From positions 1 through 54,043 of IMG/VR virus record IMGVR_UViG_3300046836_000171: DNA of 54,043 nucleotides; one strand, written 5' to 3'. Source of the stretch: a virus. The notes below the pieces were generated by a model. The model did not search any database. It saw nothing but the letters and a program-made list of their open reading frames with translations, and was not told the DNA's origin. The position numbers and the translations under genes are program-made. Below, piece by piece: positions 1,463-47,064 of the stretch (the first letter of the stretch is position 1; the number at the start of each line of letters is the position of its first letter).

Positions 1463-1755
1463 ACACCTACCAGATCGACTCGGAGGTCACGCTTTCGACG
1501 CTCTTCACGGCGTCCGATGGCGTCACGCCGATCGACCCGACCACGGTCACGCTCTACATCGTCGCGCCGGACGGGACCGAAATGGAGCTGACCGGCAGCG
1601 ATCTGGCGCATCCCTCGACCGGCAGCTTCAGCTACGGCGTGCTGGTCAATCAGTCCGGCATCTGGATTTACAAATGGCAGGGCGCGGGCGCCGTGGACGT
1701 CACCACGCCCGACACCTATCTGGCGGTGCAAGAAAGTGTCCCTCTCCCCGGCTAA
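1459..1755 (+). CDS. Small beta-rich virion-associated protein
   Basis: A 98-residue protein of unknown function. The sequence is almost all short beta-strand-like stretches (VTLYIVAPDGTEMEL, then a GIWIYKW stretch), which resembles the small Ig-like or beta-sandwich proteins often seen beside head genes. It starts in an ATGA overlap with the repeat protein and is followed by, or overlaps, the MuF head gene, so it belongs to the virion operon. No catalytic motif is visible. Confidence 0.7.
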   Translation: MNTYQIDSEVTLSTLFTASDGVTPIDPTTVTLYIVAPDGTEMELTGSDLAHPSTGSFSYGVLVNQSGIWIYKWQGAGAVDVTTPDTYLAVQESVPLPG

Positions 1756-2605
1756 GGTGGGTCGCCTGGGCCTCGATCGCGGCCGCTACATTCGCGGCCC
1801 TGCGCGGGTAAAGGCGAAGGTTCTCGCGCCCGTCCGCCCGAACGTCGGGATCGAGCTGGCCTATCGCCGCGCGCTGATGAGGCTAGTCGATCGGATGCAG
1901 GCGGATATCGACGCGCTGCTGAAGCCGACTTACGGGATGCTGGCGCCGGCGATCGTCGCCCAGGACGCAGCCCCAGCCGTCGAGCTGGCCGGGCTCATGC
2001 GCGGGTTGCGCCGACGCTGGGAAGCGAACTTCGACCGCGCCGCGCCCGAGCTGGCCGCCTACTTCGCCCAGGCCGCCCAGGATCGCAGCTCGCGGACGCT
2101 GAGCGCCATCCTGCGCCGCGCCGGGCTCACGGTGCAGTTCCGCATGACGCCGGCGGCCCAGGAGGTCTACGACGCCGCGGTGATCGAGAACGTCGGGTTG
2201 ATCCGCTCGATCGCCCAGCAGCACCTTCAGGAGGTCGAGGGGATGGTGATGCGCAGCGCCCAGCACGGCCGCGACCTGGGGCCGCTCGCCAAGTCGCTGC
2301 GCGCCCGCTACGGCATCACCAAGCGGCGGGCGGCGCTGATCGCGCGAGACCAAAACAACAAGGCGACCGCGGTCATCACCCGCGTGCGGCAGAAGGAGCT
2401 GGGGATCACGCAGGCGCGGTGGGTCCACAGCCACGCCGGCAAGACGCCGCGGCCGGACCATGTTGCGTTCAGCGAGGGGCGCGGCGGCGGCCCCTACTAC
2501 GACGTCGAGAAGGGCGCGCTGATCAGCGGCGAAAGGATTTTCCCCGGCGAGTTAATCAACTGCCGGTGTGTGTCCCGGTCGGTCATTCCCGGTTTCGGTG
2601 TATAA
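1736..2605 (+). CDS. MuF-type head morphogenesis protein
   Basis: A 289-residue minor head protein of the Mu gpF / SPP1 gp7 family, normally a few copies near the portal vertex. The helical N-terminal half leads into the family signature around residues 200-285: RDQNNKA, then RWVHSHAGKTPRPDH, and a closing FPGELINCRC box. The GTG at 1736 overlaps the upstream gene by 20 bp. An in-frame GTG at 1757, just past that stop, is an equally good start. It is the last gene before a 354-bp gap. In most phages it sits next to the portal gene, but here the portal ends at 46508, several kb away across the window ends. Confidence 0.88.
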   Translation: MSLSPAKVGRLGLDRGRYIRGPARVKAKVLAPVRPNVGIELAYRRALMRLVDRMQADIDALLKPTYGMLAPAIVAQDAAPAVELAGLMRGLRRRWEANFDRAAPELAAYFAQAAQDRSSRTLSAILRRAGLTVQFRMTPAAQEVYDAAVIENVGLIRSIAQQHLQEVEGMVMRSAQHGRDLGPLAKSLRARYGITKRRAALIARDQNNKATAVITRVRQKELGITQARWVHSHAGKTPRPDHVAFSEGRGGGPYYDVEKGALISGERIFPGELINCRCVSRSVIPGFGV

Positions 2606-2959: not shown

Positions 2960-3388
2960 ATGGCGACATTTGCGAAGCGCGCGACACCCGGTCAGGCGGC
3001 GATCCTCCGCATGATCGAGGGCGGCATCAAAAGCGCCCAGCACGCCCACCCCGAAATCATCATCAGCCCGCGGCATCGCACGTCGATCGCCAAGCGGGCG
3101 GCAGGGCTAATCTCGGCGGCGACGCCGGGCTTGGTGTCGGCGGCATCGCGCCCGCCGATAGCATCGCCGGACGGACACTTCTCAGACCCGACCGGCGGCC
3201 GTCGATCCATTGTGGGGGTCGAGGGCAGGGCGGGAACGGGCCAGCTAACTGACCGTTCCCGCCTGGGTCCGCTGCGCAGCCTGCGCCGGCAGATCGAGCG
3301 CGATCTGTGGGCGGTCGATGACTTGGCCGCGCGCAAGGCGTATGTGCATACCCTTCGGCTGATCGCCGAGCTGGGGGTGCGCAAGTGA
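2960..3388 (+). CDS. Conserved phage protein before the protease
   Basis: A 142-residue protein I cannot assign. The N-terminus ([24 protein letters not shown]) looks like a conserved helical phage module, the middle is Gly/Ser-rich and the C-terminus is helical. It begins the capsid operon and overlaps the protease start in a GTGA junction. A TAGCGT box lies 7 nt upstream of the ATG and there is no clear ribosome site, so the transcript could be leaderless. A head-assembly role is suggested only by position. Confidence 0.7.
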
Positions 3389-4965
3389 CCATCGCCGATC
3401 TTGAACGCATCCTGGCGGCTGATCGGGCGGTGCTGGCCTATGACCCGCTGAAGCCCGGCAAGAGCCGCGAGGTCATCAGCGCCAACATCGGCGAGCTGGT
3501 GCGCGCCGGCCATGCCGTCAAGCAGGCGGCCGCCATCGCCTACAAGGAGGCGGGCGAGGATTGCGAGACCTTCAGCGAGGATGAGCTGACCGGGATCGCC
3601 AGCCGCGCGCTGCTGGCGGGCGCCAGCGACCGGATCGCGTTCGACTTCGACACCGCGCGCCACACCGACGTCGATGGGCGACTGCATGTCGCGGTCAGCC
3701 ACATCAGCAAGGCGACGGTGAATCCCTACTACGGGCGGGAGATTCCCAACGCCGAAGCGCTCGGGCTCGATCCCGGCAGGGTCTACCATCTGCTGCGAGA
3801 CCCCGAAGAGCTGCGCCGGGCGGCGGCCACGTCGAACAACTTGCAACTATTGATGCAGCACGTCCCGGTCAACGCGGACGATCCGAAGAAAGAAATCACG
3901 GTCGGCTCCACCGGGACCGATGCCGCCTTCAATAGTCCGTACCTCGACAACTCTCTGGTTGTTTGGGATTCGGCCGCGATCGAGGCGATCAAATCTAAAA
4001 AGCAGCGCGAGCTTAGCTGTGCGTATCGATATATAGCGGACATGACCCCCGGAACCTACCAGGGCTTGCGGTACGACGGGGTGATGCGCAATATCGAGTT
4101 CAACCACGTCGCACTCGTAGACAGGGGCCGCGCCGGCTCTGACGTCTGCGTCGGTGATCAGGACCCAGGGGCGAACATGCTCAAGCCGATTTCCTCGCGT
4201 AAGGCGCTGCTGGTCTCGGGCGCGATCCGCGCCATGGTGAAGCCGCTGCTGGCCGCCGACGCGGCGATCGACTTCAGCGCCATCGTGGAGGGCGTCACCG
4301 CCGCCGCCTACGACTCGAAGGTCATCGCCGAGCGCGTGGCCGCCGCCACCAAGGGCAAGCTGAAGCCCGACGCCGACCTGAAGCCTCTCGCCGTCGCGCT
4401 CGACGCGATGGAAGACGAAGAGGATGAGGGCGCCGAAGACGACGAAATCGACGGCGAGCCCGACGATGACGACGACAAGGGCGAGGGCGGCGAAGAGGGC
4501 GGCGAGGGCGGCGGCGACAAGAAGGCGCGGGACAAGCGCGCCCGCGACAAGAAGGCGAAGGATAAGGCCGCCCGCGACAAGAAGGCGCGCGACGAAGCCG
4601 AAGCTGCGGCCCGCGAGGAAGACGACAAGGAAGACAAGTCGATGGACCGCAAGGCGACCGACCGCGCGATCCAGATGGCGCTCGACGCCCGCGATCAGCG
4701 CTACGCCGCGCAAGAGGCGGTGCGGCCGTTCATCGGCGCGCTCGCCAACCCGCCCGAGACCGCCGGCGGCGTCTACAAGCTGGCGCTCGACCACTTCGGC
4801 ATCGACACCAAGGGCCTGCCCGAGGCGGCCATGAAGCCGACGTTCGACGCCGTGAAGGCGCACCAGCGCCAGCCGGGCCAGCGCCGCGAGCGCATCGCCC
4901 AGGACGGCGCCAAGGGCGCCACCACCATGTTCCCGGCCATGGGCCGGATTCGCCAAGCAGGTTAA
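3385..4965 (+). CDS. DUF2213 prohead protease fused to scaffold-like tail
   Basis: Residues about 90-265 match the DUF2213 capsid maturation protease family, with the [20 protein letters not shown] opening, a [11 protein letters not shown] stretch and [12 protein letters not shown] near the end of the domain. Residues about 345-430 are an acidic then Lys/Arg-rich low-complexity segment, and the last 100 residues are helical, which fits a built-in scaffold cleaved during head maturation. The first 85 residues look like a separate helical domain. It starts at a GTG overlapping the previous stop and lies just before the cement and capsid genes. Confidence 0.88.
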
Positions 4966-41690: not shown

Positions 41691-41968
41691 ATCCTTGGAC
41701 GATCTGCTGTGTCCCCGGCTGCGCGCACCGGACGCGGCGCTATACCCGCCCCTGGGATGGCGAGTGGATATGCGCCGAGCATTGGCGACTCGTCCCCGGG
41801 TCGCTTAAGTCGCTTCGCGCCCGCTTGGTGCAGCGCTACCGTCGCCGCGGCCAGATGGACATGACCGCTCTTCACTACCTGCCACAGACCCGAGCCGCCG
41901 ACCGCATGTTGCGCGGCGTCTGGCGGCGCATGAAGGCGGCGGCGATCGAGCGCGCGGCCGGTCTCTGA
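41687..41968 (+). CDS. Small zinc-site protein before TerL
   Basis: A 93-residue protein from GTG 41687; another in-frame GTG at 41669 is possible. [14 protein letters not shown] and [11 protein letters not shown] give Cys and His residues for one zinc site, and the remainder is strongly basic ([13 protein letters not shown]). It may bind nucleic acid. It is coupled to TerL by TGATG. Confidence 0.65.
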
Positions 41969-43638
41969 TGGCTGACGGCTCCGGTCTTCCCGTCGCCTTC
42001 GATTGGAAGAACCCCGACTACGTTGACGTGTTCGACCGCCGCACCCGCCGCCTGCAATGGCTGCGCGGCGAGATGGCGCGCGAAATCGAAGAGGGCCTAG
42101 AGCCCACCGTCCTGCCGACGCTGCGCCGCTACTACCGCGACCACCCGGCCGACTTCATCAACGATTGGGGCGTGACCGTCGATCCGCGCAACCTGGAGCG
42201 CGACCTGCCGGCGGTGATCCCCTTCCTGTTGTTCCCCAGGCAGCGCGAGTTCGTGGACTTCGTGATGGAGCGCTGGCGCGGCCGCGAGCCCGGCCTTGTC
42301 GAGAAGAGCCGCGACATGGGGATGAGCTGGCTGACCGTCGCCTTCGCCGCGACGCTGTGCCTGCATATCCCAGGGATGGCGATCGGCTTCGGCTCGCGGA
42401 AGGAAGAGTATGTCGATGGGACCGACAACCCGAAGTCCCTCTTCTGGAAAGCCCGCCAGTTCGTCCACTACCTGCCCCGCGAGTTCCGGGGAGGATGGGA
42501 CCGCCGGCGCCACGCGGCGCACATGCGCCTCGCCTTCCCCCTAACGGGGGCCACGATGACCGGGGAAGCCGGCGACAACATCGGCCGCGGCGACCGCACG
42601 GCTATCTACTTCGTGGACGAAGCCGCGCACGTCGTGCGCCCCCAGCTCATCGAGGCGTCGCTCAGCCAGACGACGAACTGCCGCATCGACCTGTCGAGCG
42701 TCAACGGCATGGCGAACGCCTTCGCGGCCCGGCGCTGGGGCGGCAAGATCAAGGTCTTCATCTTCGATTGGCGCGACGATCCGCGGAAGGATGACGCTTG
42801 GTATCTGAAGCAGCAGGACGAGCTCGATCCCGTCGTGCTGGCCCAGGAGGTTGATCGCGACTACACGGCCGCCGTCGAGCGCGTGCTGATCCCGGGCGTG
42901 TGGGTCCGCGCGGCGATCGACGCGCACCTGAAGCTTGAGCTGCTAGGCCACGGCCGCCGGCGCGGCTCGCTCGACGTCGCCGACGAGGGGGCCGACCGCA
43001 ACGCCTTCATCGCCCGGCGCGGGGTGATCATCGACCACATCGAGAGCTGGTCCGGCAAGGGGTCCGACACCTTCGCGACCACCGAACGCGCCTTCTTCCT
43101 GGCCGACACGCTGGGGCTGGAGGGGTTCAAGTACGACGCGGACGGGATCGGCTCAGCCTGCCGCGGCGACGCTCGGGTGATCAATGAGCGGCGCGTGGCG
43201 AGCGGCGGCCGCAAGGTAGAAGTGCTGGCCTACCGCGGATCGGCCGGCGTGATCCATCCCGAGCGCGAGGACGTGAAGGGCCGGCTGAACGAAGACTTCT
43301 TCATGAACCGCAAGGCGCAGGATTGGTGGCGGCTGCGCCAGCGGTTCCAGGCGACCTACCGGGCGATCGAAGACCTGAAGCTGCCGCCCGACCAGCGCCG
43401 GCCGGTCGATATCAACGCGCTGATCAGCATCAGCAGCGAGGCGGGGCCGGCGCACTTGCAGCTCGTAGCCGAGCTGTCCCAGCCAACCTTCACGATTAAC
43501 GTCGCCGGCAAAGTGGTGGTAGACAAGAAGCCGGATGGGGCGAAGTCCCCGAATCTGGCGGACGGGGCGATGATGGAGTTCGCTGAAGACGACGCCCTGC
43601 CGATCGTCATCACCGACGACGCGCTGGCGAAAATCTGA
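41968..43638 (+). CDS. Terminase large subunit
   Basis: A 556-residue packaging motor. The ATPase has an atypical Walker [11 protein letters not shown], at about residue 112, and a Walker [10 protein letters not shown], near 213. [15 protein letters not shown] is the coupling region. The nuclease part begins with [12 protein letters not shown] near 337 and continues with [14 protein letters not shown]. It pumps DNA into the prohead and cuts it. It overlaps the portal start by TGATG. Confidence 0.92.
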
Positions 43639-46508
43639 TGGCTGACGACGCCGGCACGTTCGCCCAGCCCTACCGAGTGGTCGCAAGCGCCCGCTGGTCG
43701 CAGCCGGCGCGCGGCCCCGAGTGGACGCTAACCGGCATGGACGCGCTCGCCGGCGGGCTCGGGGCCAGCGCCGAGCTGGTCCCCTACAGCCACGTCCCGC
43801 GGATGAACCCGAAGGATATCTTCAGGGCCTACCAGCCGCCCCCAGGCTTCGGCGCGGCCGGCGTCGATGCGGCCAAGGGCGGCGACGCCACGCTGGCGAT
43901 GGACGAAGCGATTGCGATCGCCCAGGATTGGGACAACGCCGTGGGCGCCCACGCGCTCCAGATCGGCGGCGCGCAGCTCACCCAGGGCATCGGCTTCCTG
44001 GGCTACCCGTTCCTCGCCGAGCTATCGCAGCGCCCCGAGTACCGGAAGATCAGCGAGACGATCGCCGAAGAGCTGACCCGTAAGTGGATCAGGGTCTCAT
44101 CGATCAGCGACGGCGAGGACAAGACGCAGAAGGTCGATGACCTGAACGGGGCGATCGAGCGCTTCCGCGTGCGCGAGCGCTTCCACAAGGCGGCCGAGCT
44201 GGACGGCTTCATGGGCCGATCGCAGCTCTACATCGACGTGGGGAAGAGCAGCGACGCAGCCGAGCTGGCGACGCCGCTCATGCTGACGCCCGAGAAGATC
44301 GCCAAGGGCTCGCTCAAGGGCTTCCGCGTGGTCGAGCCCATGTGGAGCTATCCGCTCGACTACAATTCATCGGACCCGCTGGCCGAGAACTTCTACGTCC
44401 CCGTGAGCTGGGCGGTGATGCAGCGCCGCGTCCACGCCTCGCGCCTGCTGACCTTCATCGGCCGCCCGATGCCCGATCTGCTGAAGCCGGCCTACGCCTT
44501 CGGCGGGCTCAGCCTCAGCCAGATGGCGATGCCCTACGTGCAGAACTGGCTGCGCACCCGGCAGTCGGTCAGCGACCTGATCCACAGCTTCAGCGTGATG
44601 ATCCTCTCGACCGACATGGGCGCGACGCTCGACGCGGAGGGCATGAACAAGCTGTTGCGCCGCGCCCAGGCGGCCGCCCTCTTCCGCGACAACCGCGGGC
44701 TCCAGATCATCAACAAGGCGACCGAAGAGTTCGCCAACGTCAGCGCACCGCTGAGCGGCCTCGACGCGCTTCAGGCGCAGTCGCAGGAACAGATGGCGAG
44801 CGTCAGCGGCATCCCGCTGGTCAAGCTGCTGGGAATCACGCCGAGCGGGCTGAACGCCTCATCGGATGGCGAGGTTCGGGTCTTCTACGACCGGGTGAAG
44901 GCGACCCAGGAGAAGTTCATGGGGCCGAACCTGAAGCATGTCATGGACGTGCTTCAGCTCAATGAGTGGGGCGAGGTTGACCCCGATATCGTCTATGAGT
45001 GGGTTCCGCTGTGGGAGCTGGACGAAGCCGGCAAGGCCGCGGTGCGCAAGACCGACGCGGACACCGGCGCGGTGCTGATCGAGTCGGGGGCGCTGGCGAC
45101 CGAAGAAGAGCGCAAGCGCATCGCGAGCGCGCCGGATTCGCCCTACCAGGGGCTCGACGTCGATGACATGCCCGATCCGCCCGACATGGGCGAGGGCGAA
45201 GAGGGCGCGCCGGATATCCCCGGCGCTGGGGCGAAGGCGAGCGGCAACCCGGCGAGGACTGCCGAGCCTGCGGCCGTCGAGCGCGCCGGCGACCATGCGC
45301 TCGACGCCGAGTTCCGCGAGTCCGACCACCCGCGCGACAATGACGGCAAGTTCAGCGAGGGCGGCGGTGGTGGCGGTGGCGGTGGCGCGGTCGAGAGGCG
45401 ACGGGCTGGGGCTAACCCGGCCAAGCTGACCAAGCCGCAGCGCGTCGCGCTTGAAAGGGTCGCTGCCGGTCAGCAGCCGGGCAACGTCGGTCATGTGCGC
45501 GAGCGCCTTACGGAGGGGGGGCTGATCCATCACACCTTCAACGAACATGGAATTGGCACCGCGCACCTGACCGAGAAGGGGCGCGCGGCGCTGGGGATCA
45601 AAGAGCCGAGCGCGCCGCCCCCGGCCAACGTCCATCCCGAAGTCGCCAAGACGCTCGGCGAGGCGGGGCTCAAGCGTCTGCACGATGCGATCGGCAGCAA
45701 GGATCACAAGTCGATCCTCGCCGCGCTCGCCCCCGCGGCCGGAAAGCGGCGCGAGGGCGCGTCGATGCCGATCGAGCATCACGGCTCGCCCCAGGCGATC
45801 GCGAAGTTCCTGGGATCGCGCACCTACGTCGCGCCGGACGGATCGGAGGCCAGCCACCCCGAAATCATCGATCATCTGGTGGACAAGGCGCTGAGCTACG
45901 CGGGGGCCGGTGGCGTGCGACGGAATCGTGAAGTGCTGTTCGTCACCGGGCCGCCGGCGGCCGGCAAGTCCACGATCGCCGAAATCCTCGCCGAGCGGAA
46001 CGGCGCGGCGATCCTCGACCCCGACGACGCGAAGAAGGTCATCCCCGAGTTCAACGGCGGCCTCGACTCCAGCTACGTCCACGAAGAGTCGTCAACGCTC
46101 ACCGGCTACGTCGGGGGGCGCCTGACCGATGAGGGCGCGAACATCATCTATCCGATGGTGGGGGACAGCGCGGAGAAGATCAGCAAGAAGATCGATGACT
46201 ACCGCGCCAAGGGCTACAAGGTCGGCATCGTCAATCTGGACGTCTCGGCCGACAACGCCGCGCAGCGCATGGCGAGGCGGTTCGTGAAGACCGGCCGGCT
46301 GATCGATCCCGGCTACTTCGGGAGCATCGTGAACGAAGAAGCGCCGCAGAAAGCCTATGCGGCCCTGCGGCAGGATAGTCGCCTAGAGCTGGGCGCGGCC
46401 CAGGTGGACGGGAACACCGCGCCGGGCGAGGAAGCGATCAAAGACGTGATCGGCTCGCCGGCGGGCTATCGCCACGGCCAGCTCGCGAAGGGGCGGCAAG
46501 CGCCCTAG
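43638..46508 (+). CDS. Portal protein fused to zeta-toxin-like kinase domain
   Basis: A 956-residue protein, about twice the normal portal length. Residues about 45-500 are a DUF1073-type portal (GYPFLAELSQRPEYRKISET, SLKGFRVVEPMWSYPLDYNS, VHASRLLTFIGRPMPDLLKP, LRTRQSVSDLIHSFSVMIL). At 563 comes DHPRDNDGKF and a Gly run. Residues about 590-660 resemble a winged helix (RERLTEGGLI, LTEKGRAALGI). From about 730 a zeta-type kinase follows: Walker A GPPAAGKST at 771-779, DPDD at 794-797, and NIIYPMVGDSAEKISKKID with GYKVGIVNL. Twelve portals per virion would carry twelve kinase domains. Confidence 0.87.
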   Translation: MADDAGTFAQPYRVVASARWSQPARGPEWTLTGMDALAGGLGASAELVPYSHVPRMNPKDIFRAYQPPPGFGAAGVDAAKGGDATLAMDEAIAIAQDWDNAVGAHALQIGGAQLTQGIGFLGYPFLAELSQRPEYRKISETIAEELTRKWIRVSSISDGEDKTQKVDDLNGAIERFRVRERFHKAAELDGFMGRSQLYIDVGKSSDAAELATPLMLTPEKIAKGSLKGFRVVEPMWSYPLDYNSSDPLAENFYVPVSWAVMQRRVHASRLLTFIGRPMPDLLKPAYAFGGLSLSQMAMPYVQNWLRTRQSVSDLIHSFSVMILSTDMGATLDAEGMNKLLRRAQAAALFRDNRGLQIINKATEEFANVSAPLSGLDALQAQSQEQMASVSGIPLVKLLGITPSGLNASSDGEVRVFYDRVKATQEKFMGPNLKHVMDVLQLNEWGEVDPDIVYEWVPLWELDEAGKAAVRKTDADTGAVLIESGALATEEERKRIASAPDSPYQGLDVDDMPDPPDMGEGEEGAPDIPGAGAKASGNPARTAEPAAVERAGDHALDAEFRESDHPRDNDGKFSEGGGGGGGGGAVERRRAGANPAKLTKPQRVALERVAAGQQPGNVGHVRERLTEGGLIHHTFNEHGIGTAHLTEKGRAALGIKEPSAPPPANVHPEVAKTLGEAGLKRLHDAIGSKDHKSILAALAPAAGKRREGASMPIEHHGSPQAIAKFLGSRTYVAPDGSEASHPEIIDHLVDKALSYAGAGGVRRNREVLFVTGPPAAGKSTIAEILAERNGAAILDPDDAKKVIPEFNGGLDSSYVHEESSTLTGYVGGRLTDEGANIIYPMVGDSAEKISKKIDDYRAKGYKVGIVNLDVSADNAAQRMARRFVKTGRLIDPGYFGSIVNEEAPQKAYAALRQDSRLELGAAQVDGNTAPGEEAIKDVIGSPAGYRHGQLAKGRQAP

Positions 46509-46696: not shown

Positions 46697-46837
46697 TTAG
46701 TCTCCTTCTTCAAGTTCGTCTTCCGGCTCATCATCGCCGTCGAGGCGGTTGCCGTCTTCGTCGCGGGGCGCTTCGTCCGCCTCGCGCATTAGGCGCTCAC
46801 GCCAATCGGCGTTCCGGTTGGGCCAGCGGGGAGTCAT
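46697..46837 (-). CDS. 46-residue acidic protein
   Basis: Starts MTPRWPNRNADWRERLMREA and ends in a very acidic run (DGDDEPEDELEEGD). GGAG lies seven bases before the ATG, which overlaps the preceding stop (ATGA). Acidic small proteins of this kind sometimes mimic DNA or block host enzymes, but nothing here proves it. Confidence 0.6.
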   Translation of the reverse strand: MTPRWPNRNADWRERLMREADEAPRDEDGNRLDGDDEPEDELEEGD

Positions 46838-47064
46838 CGGTCGGCTCCTTCATTCAGCTCGCGCAGCCCGCGGCCGATCAACTCCACGATCTTGCCGTGG
46901 CGCGTCTCGCCGGGCTGGGCGTCTATCGCCGCCGCCATGTCGGGCTCCAGCCGCAGCGCGATCTGAACCCGCTTCACGGCCCGCGGCGGGCGTCCCATGC
47001 GCTTCGGTGGGTTGGCCGCGGCGAGCTGGGCGTACAGCTCGGCCGCGTCGGGCTTGGCGGTCAC
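46834..47064 (-). CDS. Ribbon-helix-helix-like DNA-binding protein
   Basis: A 76-residue protein. Residues about 22-32 contain an AT-hook-like GRPPRAVKR, then VQIALRLEPDMAAAIDAQPG and HGKIVELIGRGLRELN have the strand-helix-helix pattern of Arc/CopG repressors. It may regulate the shared leader promoters or act as an antitoxin-like repressor. It is coupled on both sides inside accessory operon A. Confidence 0.68.
   Translation of the reverse strand: MTAKPDAAELYAQLAAANPPKRMGRPPRAVKRVQIALRLEPDMAAAIDAQPGETRHGKIVELIGRGLRELNEGADR

Follow-up and report, generated by a model that had tools for sequence, protein, structure and literature searches.

A phage portal protein fused to a zeta/PezT-family kinase, and a junction element shared by exchangeable portal tails

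The portal-kinase gene

The stretch of DNA analysed here, hereafter the window, is a metagenomic virus contig of 54,043 nucleotides from IMG/VR (record IMGVR_UViG_3300046836_000171, positions 1 to 54,043), and the gene in question is a single uninterrupted open reading frame (ORF) on its plus strand, at 43638-46508, encoding a protein of 956 residues in which a phage portal is followed by a kinase domain of the zeta/PezT family (Table 1). Such a fusion had been proposed in a preliminary description made from the letters alone, and profile matches to both halves bear it out. PF06381 matched residues 126-476 (2.1e-88, 296.9 bits against a curated cut-off of 33.8), the PHROG portal family phrog_146 matched residues 84-547 (5.3e-109), and the portal was matched in the PDB by gp19 of phage E217 (6.5e-37); with a domain above the cut-off and the gene for the large terminase subunit (TerL) adjoining it, the protein belongs among the DUF1073/HI1409 portals. 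At the other end of the same frame, PF06414 (zeta toxin) matched residues 765-897 (3.3e-19, 69.6 bits against a cut-off of 22.3).

The conserved portal core stops near DSPYQGLD (residues 500-507), and beyond it the junction, with DHPRDNDGKF at residues 563-572, the glycine run, Walker A, DPDD and the GYKVGIV strand (at residue 859) all lie where the preliminary description had placed them. That description took DHPRDNDGKF and the glycines for a linker; both are present, but they belong to a conserved junction that recurs at the effector boundaries of many unrelated virion-module proteins. The winged-helix-like stretch that follows had no Pfam match, and in L129, a relative that also carries a zeta domain, its place is taken merely by a low-complexity linker.

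Table 1. Features of the portal-kinase gene and of other genes in the window
Feature	Position	Strand	Basis
Portal core, DUF1073/HI1409 family, residues 1-508	43638..45161	+	PF06381, phrog_146 and E217 gp19 matches
Acidic/Pro-rich spacer, residues 509-558	45162..45311	+	Sequence; length differs among relatives
Junction element FRESDHPRDNDGKF, residues 559-572	45312..45353	+	Same element before C-terminal modules elsewhere
Glycine run after junction, from residue 575	45360..45386	+	Sequence
Possible winged-helix stretch, residues 591-656	45408..45605	+	Sequence pattern only, unproven
Zeta/PezT-family P-loop kinase with helical N-terminal part, residues 660-956	45615..46505	+	PF06414, AlphaFold (AF2), Foldseek
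Walker A GPPAAGKST, residues 771-779, Lys777	45948..45974	+	Lys in 52/52 aligned kinases
DPDDAKK, residues 794-800; Asp796 equivalent to zeta catalytic base D67	46017..46037	+	Asp in 52/52
YPMVGD, residues 838-843, in place of zeta IEGTGR (T118 to V, R120 to D)	46149..46166	+	Ungapped hidden Markov model alignment with 1gvn
RMARRFVKTGR, LID Arg881 and Arg887 matching zeta R158/R171	46266..46298	+	Arg in 52/52
TerL	41968..43638	+	phrog_5989 (1.9e-4) and gene order; ends where portal begins
MuF protein, no toxin domain	1736..2605	+	PF04233, 6e-8, at 165-279 of 289
DUF2213 head protein (head protease/scaffold position)	3385..4965	+	PF09979, 1.2e-47
Small ribbon-helix-helix (RHH)-like gene, convergent, after portal	46834..47064	-	Pfam below cut-off (BrnA_antitoxin, 0.028)

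The kinase domain and its acceptor site

An AlphaFold model of residues 647-956 computed from the single sequence was poor (predicted local distance difference test, pLDDT, 43), and a rerun with 52 aligned sequences gave a pLDDT of 88.7 and a predicted template modelling score of 0.87. Foldseek placed this model closest to the solved structures of epsilon/zeta (3q8x and 1gvn; E 1.5e-7 and a template modelling score of about 0.5-0.57 to 3q8x) and PezT (2p5t), followed by AvrRxo1, and a profile search of PDB sequences also put 1gvn first (4.9e-15); structure prediction and comparison thus uphold the fold suggested beforehand. The Walker lysine, both aspartates of the DxD and two LID arginines are retained in every one of the 52 aligned kinases, which settles in the affirmative the conservation that had been called for, and by sequence, fold and catalytic residues the domain is a member of the zeta/PezT (PF06414) superfamily.

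Its acceptor site is another matter. Zeta contacts uridine diphosphate N-acetylglucosamine (UDP-GlcNAc) through Asp67, its catalytic base, and through Glu100, Thr118, Arg120 and Thr128, and replacement of the Thr118 equivalent by Val renders PezT non-toxic (PMC3062530). The alignment of the window kinase with 1gvn is ungapped through this stretch, between the anchors GxN and KGY, and it puts Gly, Val, Asp and Lys at positions 100, 118, 120 and 128, leaving Asp67 as the only one of the five contacts that is kept; position 118 is Val, Ile or Leu in 47 of the 52 aligned kinases and Thr in the other five. Because four of the five contacts are replaced, the acceptor site, as read from the alignment, differs from that of zeta: the machinery of the kinase is kept and its acceptor site is altered. 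The domain had been likened to zeta toxins as UDP-GlcNAc kinases, an assignment that these replacements do not support; such activity should not be assumed, and canonical 3'-phosphorylation of UDP-GlcNAc by the window's subtype is disfavoured.

Recurrence of the fusion

Portal-zeta fusions were found with intact frames in nine further viral contigs from other datasets, amounting to eight distinct sequences, and they fall into two subtypes: that of the window, with L129, L307, L311 and L313 (the portals of the last two being identical), and a second with L106, L154, L173, L298 and L299, whose kinases retain Asp-x-Thr at the positions of E116 and T118. The junction element is present in all the portal-zeta ORFs found by the scans of viral contigs. 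Two kinase subtypes argue for at least two captures by portals, and the data imply that the zeta kinase was captured at least twice and possibly three times. In a tree of the kinases, that of the window lies nearer to the polyvalent ORFs L301 and L304 than to the kinases of L129, L307 and L311, and related zeta domains occur elsewhere in a MuF protein (cyanophage PSS2), in an ART-PolyVal ORF (L038; ART, ADP-ribosyltransferase) and in other large phage proteins. L301 and L304 are ORFs of 2200-2300 residues, the former also having a NUDIX domain and a weak HipA-like match. A scan with the single protein gave no close relatives of the window kinase, and tblastn of the tail against phages and plasmids returned distant zeta domains only, none of them seen on a portal.

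Exchangeable tails on related portals

The kinase is one of many tails. Among 78 related portals, picked by portal similarity alone, 56 end within 120 residues past the core and 22 are longer, and the tail domains recognised in the window's portal family are ADP-ribosyltransferase, NUDIX, histidine phosphatase, GNAT, zeta and Acb1, many other tails having no match. In a tree of 100 portals, 20 changes are needed to account for which have a tail and which do not, at least 12 of them forced by well-supported branches; the scoring of L117 as tail-less reflects nothing but the end of its contig. The gain or loss can be seen between near neighbours: of a group of near-identical portals, L159 and L168 carry Acb1 and L158, L163 and L007 carry no tail, and the zeta-bearing portal of L129 has a tail-less sister in L111. 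These portals therefore display the architecture of polymorphic toxins, that is, a constant N-terminal delivery domain with exchangeable C-terminal domains.

Two of these tails are of interest in themselves. Acb1, which counters the cyclic-oligonucleotide-based antiphage signalling system (CBASS), sits on the HI1409-type portals of L159 and L168 (PF23474, 5.8e-25). A PF06381 search of 385 genomes from the same class as a Rhodobacter metagenome-assembled genome gave matches in six, one of which is long-tailed (L096); this prophage portal of 1087 residues (L096:4507-8125) has an unmatched C-terminal tail and is followed directly by an acidic ORF of 156 residues, making the two a candidate toxin/immunity pair.

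The junction element

Portal tails of different kinds share the element seen in the window, with the consensus [FW]xE-x-x-HPRxxxG[KQ]F followed by a Gly/Ser stretch such as GSGGGG. In the sample of 78 portals it was present in 15 of the 22 long tails (0.007 expected by shuffling) and in none of the 56 short ones. Zeta, ART, NUDIX and phosphatase modules all stand behind it on portals, and a portal-ART with the junction is encoded by the cultured Pseudomonas phage Orisa03 (PP179327). Where tails hold two or three modules (L154, L173, L132 and L120), the junction is repeated ahead of a further module. L132:3653-9037 encodes a portal ORF of 1795 residues with three copies of the junction and a tail of 1282 residues that has no Pfam match.

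A scan of other viral contigs at the DNA level for E-x-x-HPRxxxG[KQ]F, which used GC-rich codons and so is not a census, gave at least 119 stretches, of which 86 instances were read. The residue two before the Glu formed no part of the search pattern, and it is Phe or Trp in 74 of the 78 distinct instances listed, against a background of 4.4%; Gly and Ser make up 50% of what follows the junction, against 15.5% in the background. Among the matches listed, the domains after the junction are topoisomerase IB, ART, zeta, PI3/4-kinase-like, InPase, LPD3, NUDIX, PBECR3, MuF and DUF2213, and those before it are DUF1073, Mu-type and lambda-type portals, NUDIX, 2H, MuF, ART-PolyVal and LPD1; in about 26 of these instances the junction stands within 100 residues of the start of the ORF. 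In a set of these ORFs with short leaders, the neighbouring genes match families of portals, head maturation proteases, minor head proteins and terminases. Topoisomerase IB was an unexpected partner, being found after the junction in 9 of 71 segments scanned (L177-L256). In a six-frame translation of the window, the motif occurs once only, in the portal; a cut site held in common with the capsid protein was considered and is not supported, the window's major capsid protein being without the motif.

Genes around the portal and the antitoxin question

The genes for MuF, the DUF2213 head protein and the capsid protein lie at the opposite end of the contig from the portal, with a minus-strand block and other genes between the portal and MuF. 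The window's MuF protein ends after its MuF domain, as the preliminary description had said. In 60 of 66 portals without zeta (each with at least 1.5 kb of sequence downstream), MuF is found within 1.2 kb downstream; in the zeta-carrying phages where it is visible it is 1.5-3.2 kb from the portal, and in the window it is farther still. The two ends of the contig (1-934 and 53110-54043) are alike over 934 bases, at 93.2% identity, which may reflect a circular genome with variant ends or a tandem copy of fibre-like genes.

No epsilon antitoxin was matched in the window, in keeping with the earlier impression that none was obvious next door; the search was weak, as it had no match in any control genome either. 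No co-directional gene directly follows the portal, and no immunity gene was recognised in the window, the small RHH-like gene that converges on the portal being all that was seen there. Downstream of the portal, at a distance of 103-376 nucleotides, such a convergent gene recurs in each of the five subtype-2 phages as well as in the window, and it follows none of 66 control portals; it was absent near L307 and L311. Since the five subtype-2 phages form one clade, the association amounts to about two independent cases and is a lead only.

Interpretation

On balance, we favour the view that the C-terminal part of the portal is an exchangeable effector module that is placed inside the head, released, injected and put to use early in infection. 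Its location is suggested by the cryo-electron microscopy structure of the E217 portal, in which residues 97-528 of 765 were built and the C-terminal barrel projects into the head (PMC10329688); the InPase domain of E217 gp19 (L380:1125-3419) is at residues 635-753, inside the unbuilt part. The portal domain of the window protein builds the dodecameric vertex; by analogy, its barrel would point into the head, and as many as 12 copies of the kinase, each on its HPRxxxGKF-Gly tether, would lie within the capsid. In the course of maturation or ejection, the module would probably come free in the region of the junction, which with its glycine run is well placed as a cut site or docking peptide, and would then enter the new host with the DNA, where an ATP-dependent kinase of the zeta/PezT superfamily could alter a host metabolite or a defence-related nucleotide. 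Release and entry with the DNA would also unite the portal-fused, serial and solo-leader forms. An enzyme domain fused to a head protein, with solo versions in head modules, is as expected of virion-delivered polyvalent effectors, and the earlier idea of a virion-carried effector is supported, delivery itself being the conjectural step.

More tentatively, the junction, in the form [FW]xE-x-[DKE]-HPRxxxG[KQ]F-GSGGGG, may serve phages of several portal families as a general mark by which effectors carried in the head are processed or loaded, standing ahead of any enzyme that is to be released inside or loaded into the capsid, and so covering genes fused to portals, genes fused to other head proteins, serial arrangements and solo genes with short leaders; we regard this wider role as possible rather than probable. 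Several points weigh against the effector reading and the part that it gives to the junction. The motif is missing from the capsid protein, and the junction is therefore not simply a general maturation cleavage site; the tails of E217 (InPase) and L159 (Acb1) are without the junction, so that it is not required for a portal tail; and a folded domain of about 30 kDa would, to be delivered, need to be severed and to pass through the channel of the portal.

If the kinase instead acted as a canonical zeta toxin, it would phosphorylate UDP-GlcNAc and block peptidoglycan synthesis, weakening or killing the host or rivals, and the best sequence and structure matches, the retained catalytic Lys, Asp and Arg, and the cell-wall weakening proposed for MuF-zeta in PMC5512222 would all be in keeping with that; yet the replaced contacts include the very Thr-to-Val change of non-toxic PezT, AvrRxo1 has the same fold but another acceptor, and the subtype-2 kinases (L106 and its kin) are better candidates for such a toxin, all of which makes it unlikely for the window. 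The covalent bond to the portal and the flexible glycine run could suit a kinase that remains attached and acts as a sensor or consumer of ATP in assembly or DNA packaging, the junction being an inert flexible linker. Most sampled portals are tail-less, however, and on close relatives unrelated enzymes take the place of the kinase, so basic packaging cannot depend on it, and we consider a role of this kind improbable.

We give just as little credence to a toxin-antitoxin or exclusion module, in which the kinase would protect the lysogen or kill prophage-free cells and the RHH-like protein, for example, would be an unrecognised antitoxin. The RHH-like gene's recurrence beside the window and subtype-2 portals speaks for such a module, but the gene is convergent and not in an operon with the portal, its distribution is patchy and confined to about two independent cases, epsilon was not found, and a late structural gene is an odd site for the toxin of such a pair. 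That two genes were joined by a sequencing error or in a chimeric contig was named at the outset as what could undo the fusion; in favour of this, the window comes from a metagenome, and the contig of L002, a close relative, breaks off ahead of the junction, but the architecture recurs in nine contigs with intact frames and the same element always stands at the fusion point, and we rejected an artefact as exceedingly improbable.

Relation to known systems

The preliminary description held that polymorphic phage toxins are usually fused to MuF, which is incomplete, as portal fusions to PBECR, 2H, InPase, NUDIX and ART are on record in PMC5512222 and PMC9503650. Like the window portal, the MuF polymorphic toxins of temperate phages (Jamet 2017, PMC5576092) combine a head protein of the portal-terminase module with a variable C-terminal enzyme, and zeta kinases are among the enzymes carried, as in the MuF-zeta of cyanophage PSS2 (L009); Iyer 2017 (PMC5512222) describes a MuF-zeta fusion and proposes that it weakens the cell wall. 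In the window, however, it is the portal that bears the enzyme and MuF has no such addition, no immunity gene was identified, and the T118 and R120 positions of the kinase are unlike those of canonical zeta. The published portal-effector fusions share the carrier, the InPase portal E217 gp19 even belonging to the window's family, but the passages searched mention neither zeta on a portal nor a shared junction.

With epsilon/zeta and PezAT (1gvn, 3q8x and 2p5t), the window kinase has the fold, Walker A, catalytic Asp and LID arginines in common; it differs in its replaced UDP-GlcNAc contacts, in having no recognised antitoxin and in being fused to a virion protein. The internal proteins of phage T4 and its Alt protein, which also figures in PMC5512222, are packaged in the head and injected, and the logic proposed here is the same, proteins from the head accompanying the DNA into the cell, although there is no sequence relation and the capsid-targeting and cleavage sequences of T4 are different. 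No text on a portal-zeta fusion or, in the passages seen, on the junction element was found in the open-access literature (preprints lay outside its scope), and within that searchable text both appear to be new.

Significance

The swappable tails suggest that effector enzymes, one interchangeable with another, are delivered from the phage head as infection begins. Should the portal tail be a cassette slot, a structural protein that tailed phages need would also be a vehicle for enzymes of early infection, among them ADP-ribosyltransferases, anti-CBASS phosphodiesterases, NUDIX hydrolases and zeta-type kinases, and a cleavage or loading event in the phage head is predicted that can be tested. 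The junction would then allow such enzymes to be found with a simple search, irrespective of fold, and the candidates for counter-defence and host takeover listed in this way would include many proteins that have no Pfam match. For the zeta family, the window kinase sets the machinery of the kinase apart from specificity for UDP-GlcNAc and points to a different acceptor. If the wider reading of the junction is true, the element would be a portable code for injected cargo, with a logic like that of the T4 capsid-targeting leader and cleavage site.

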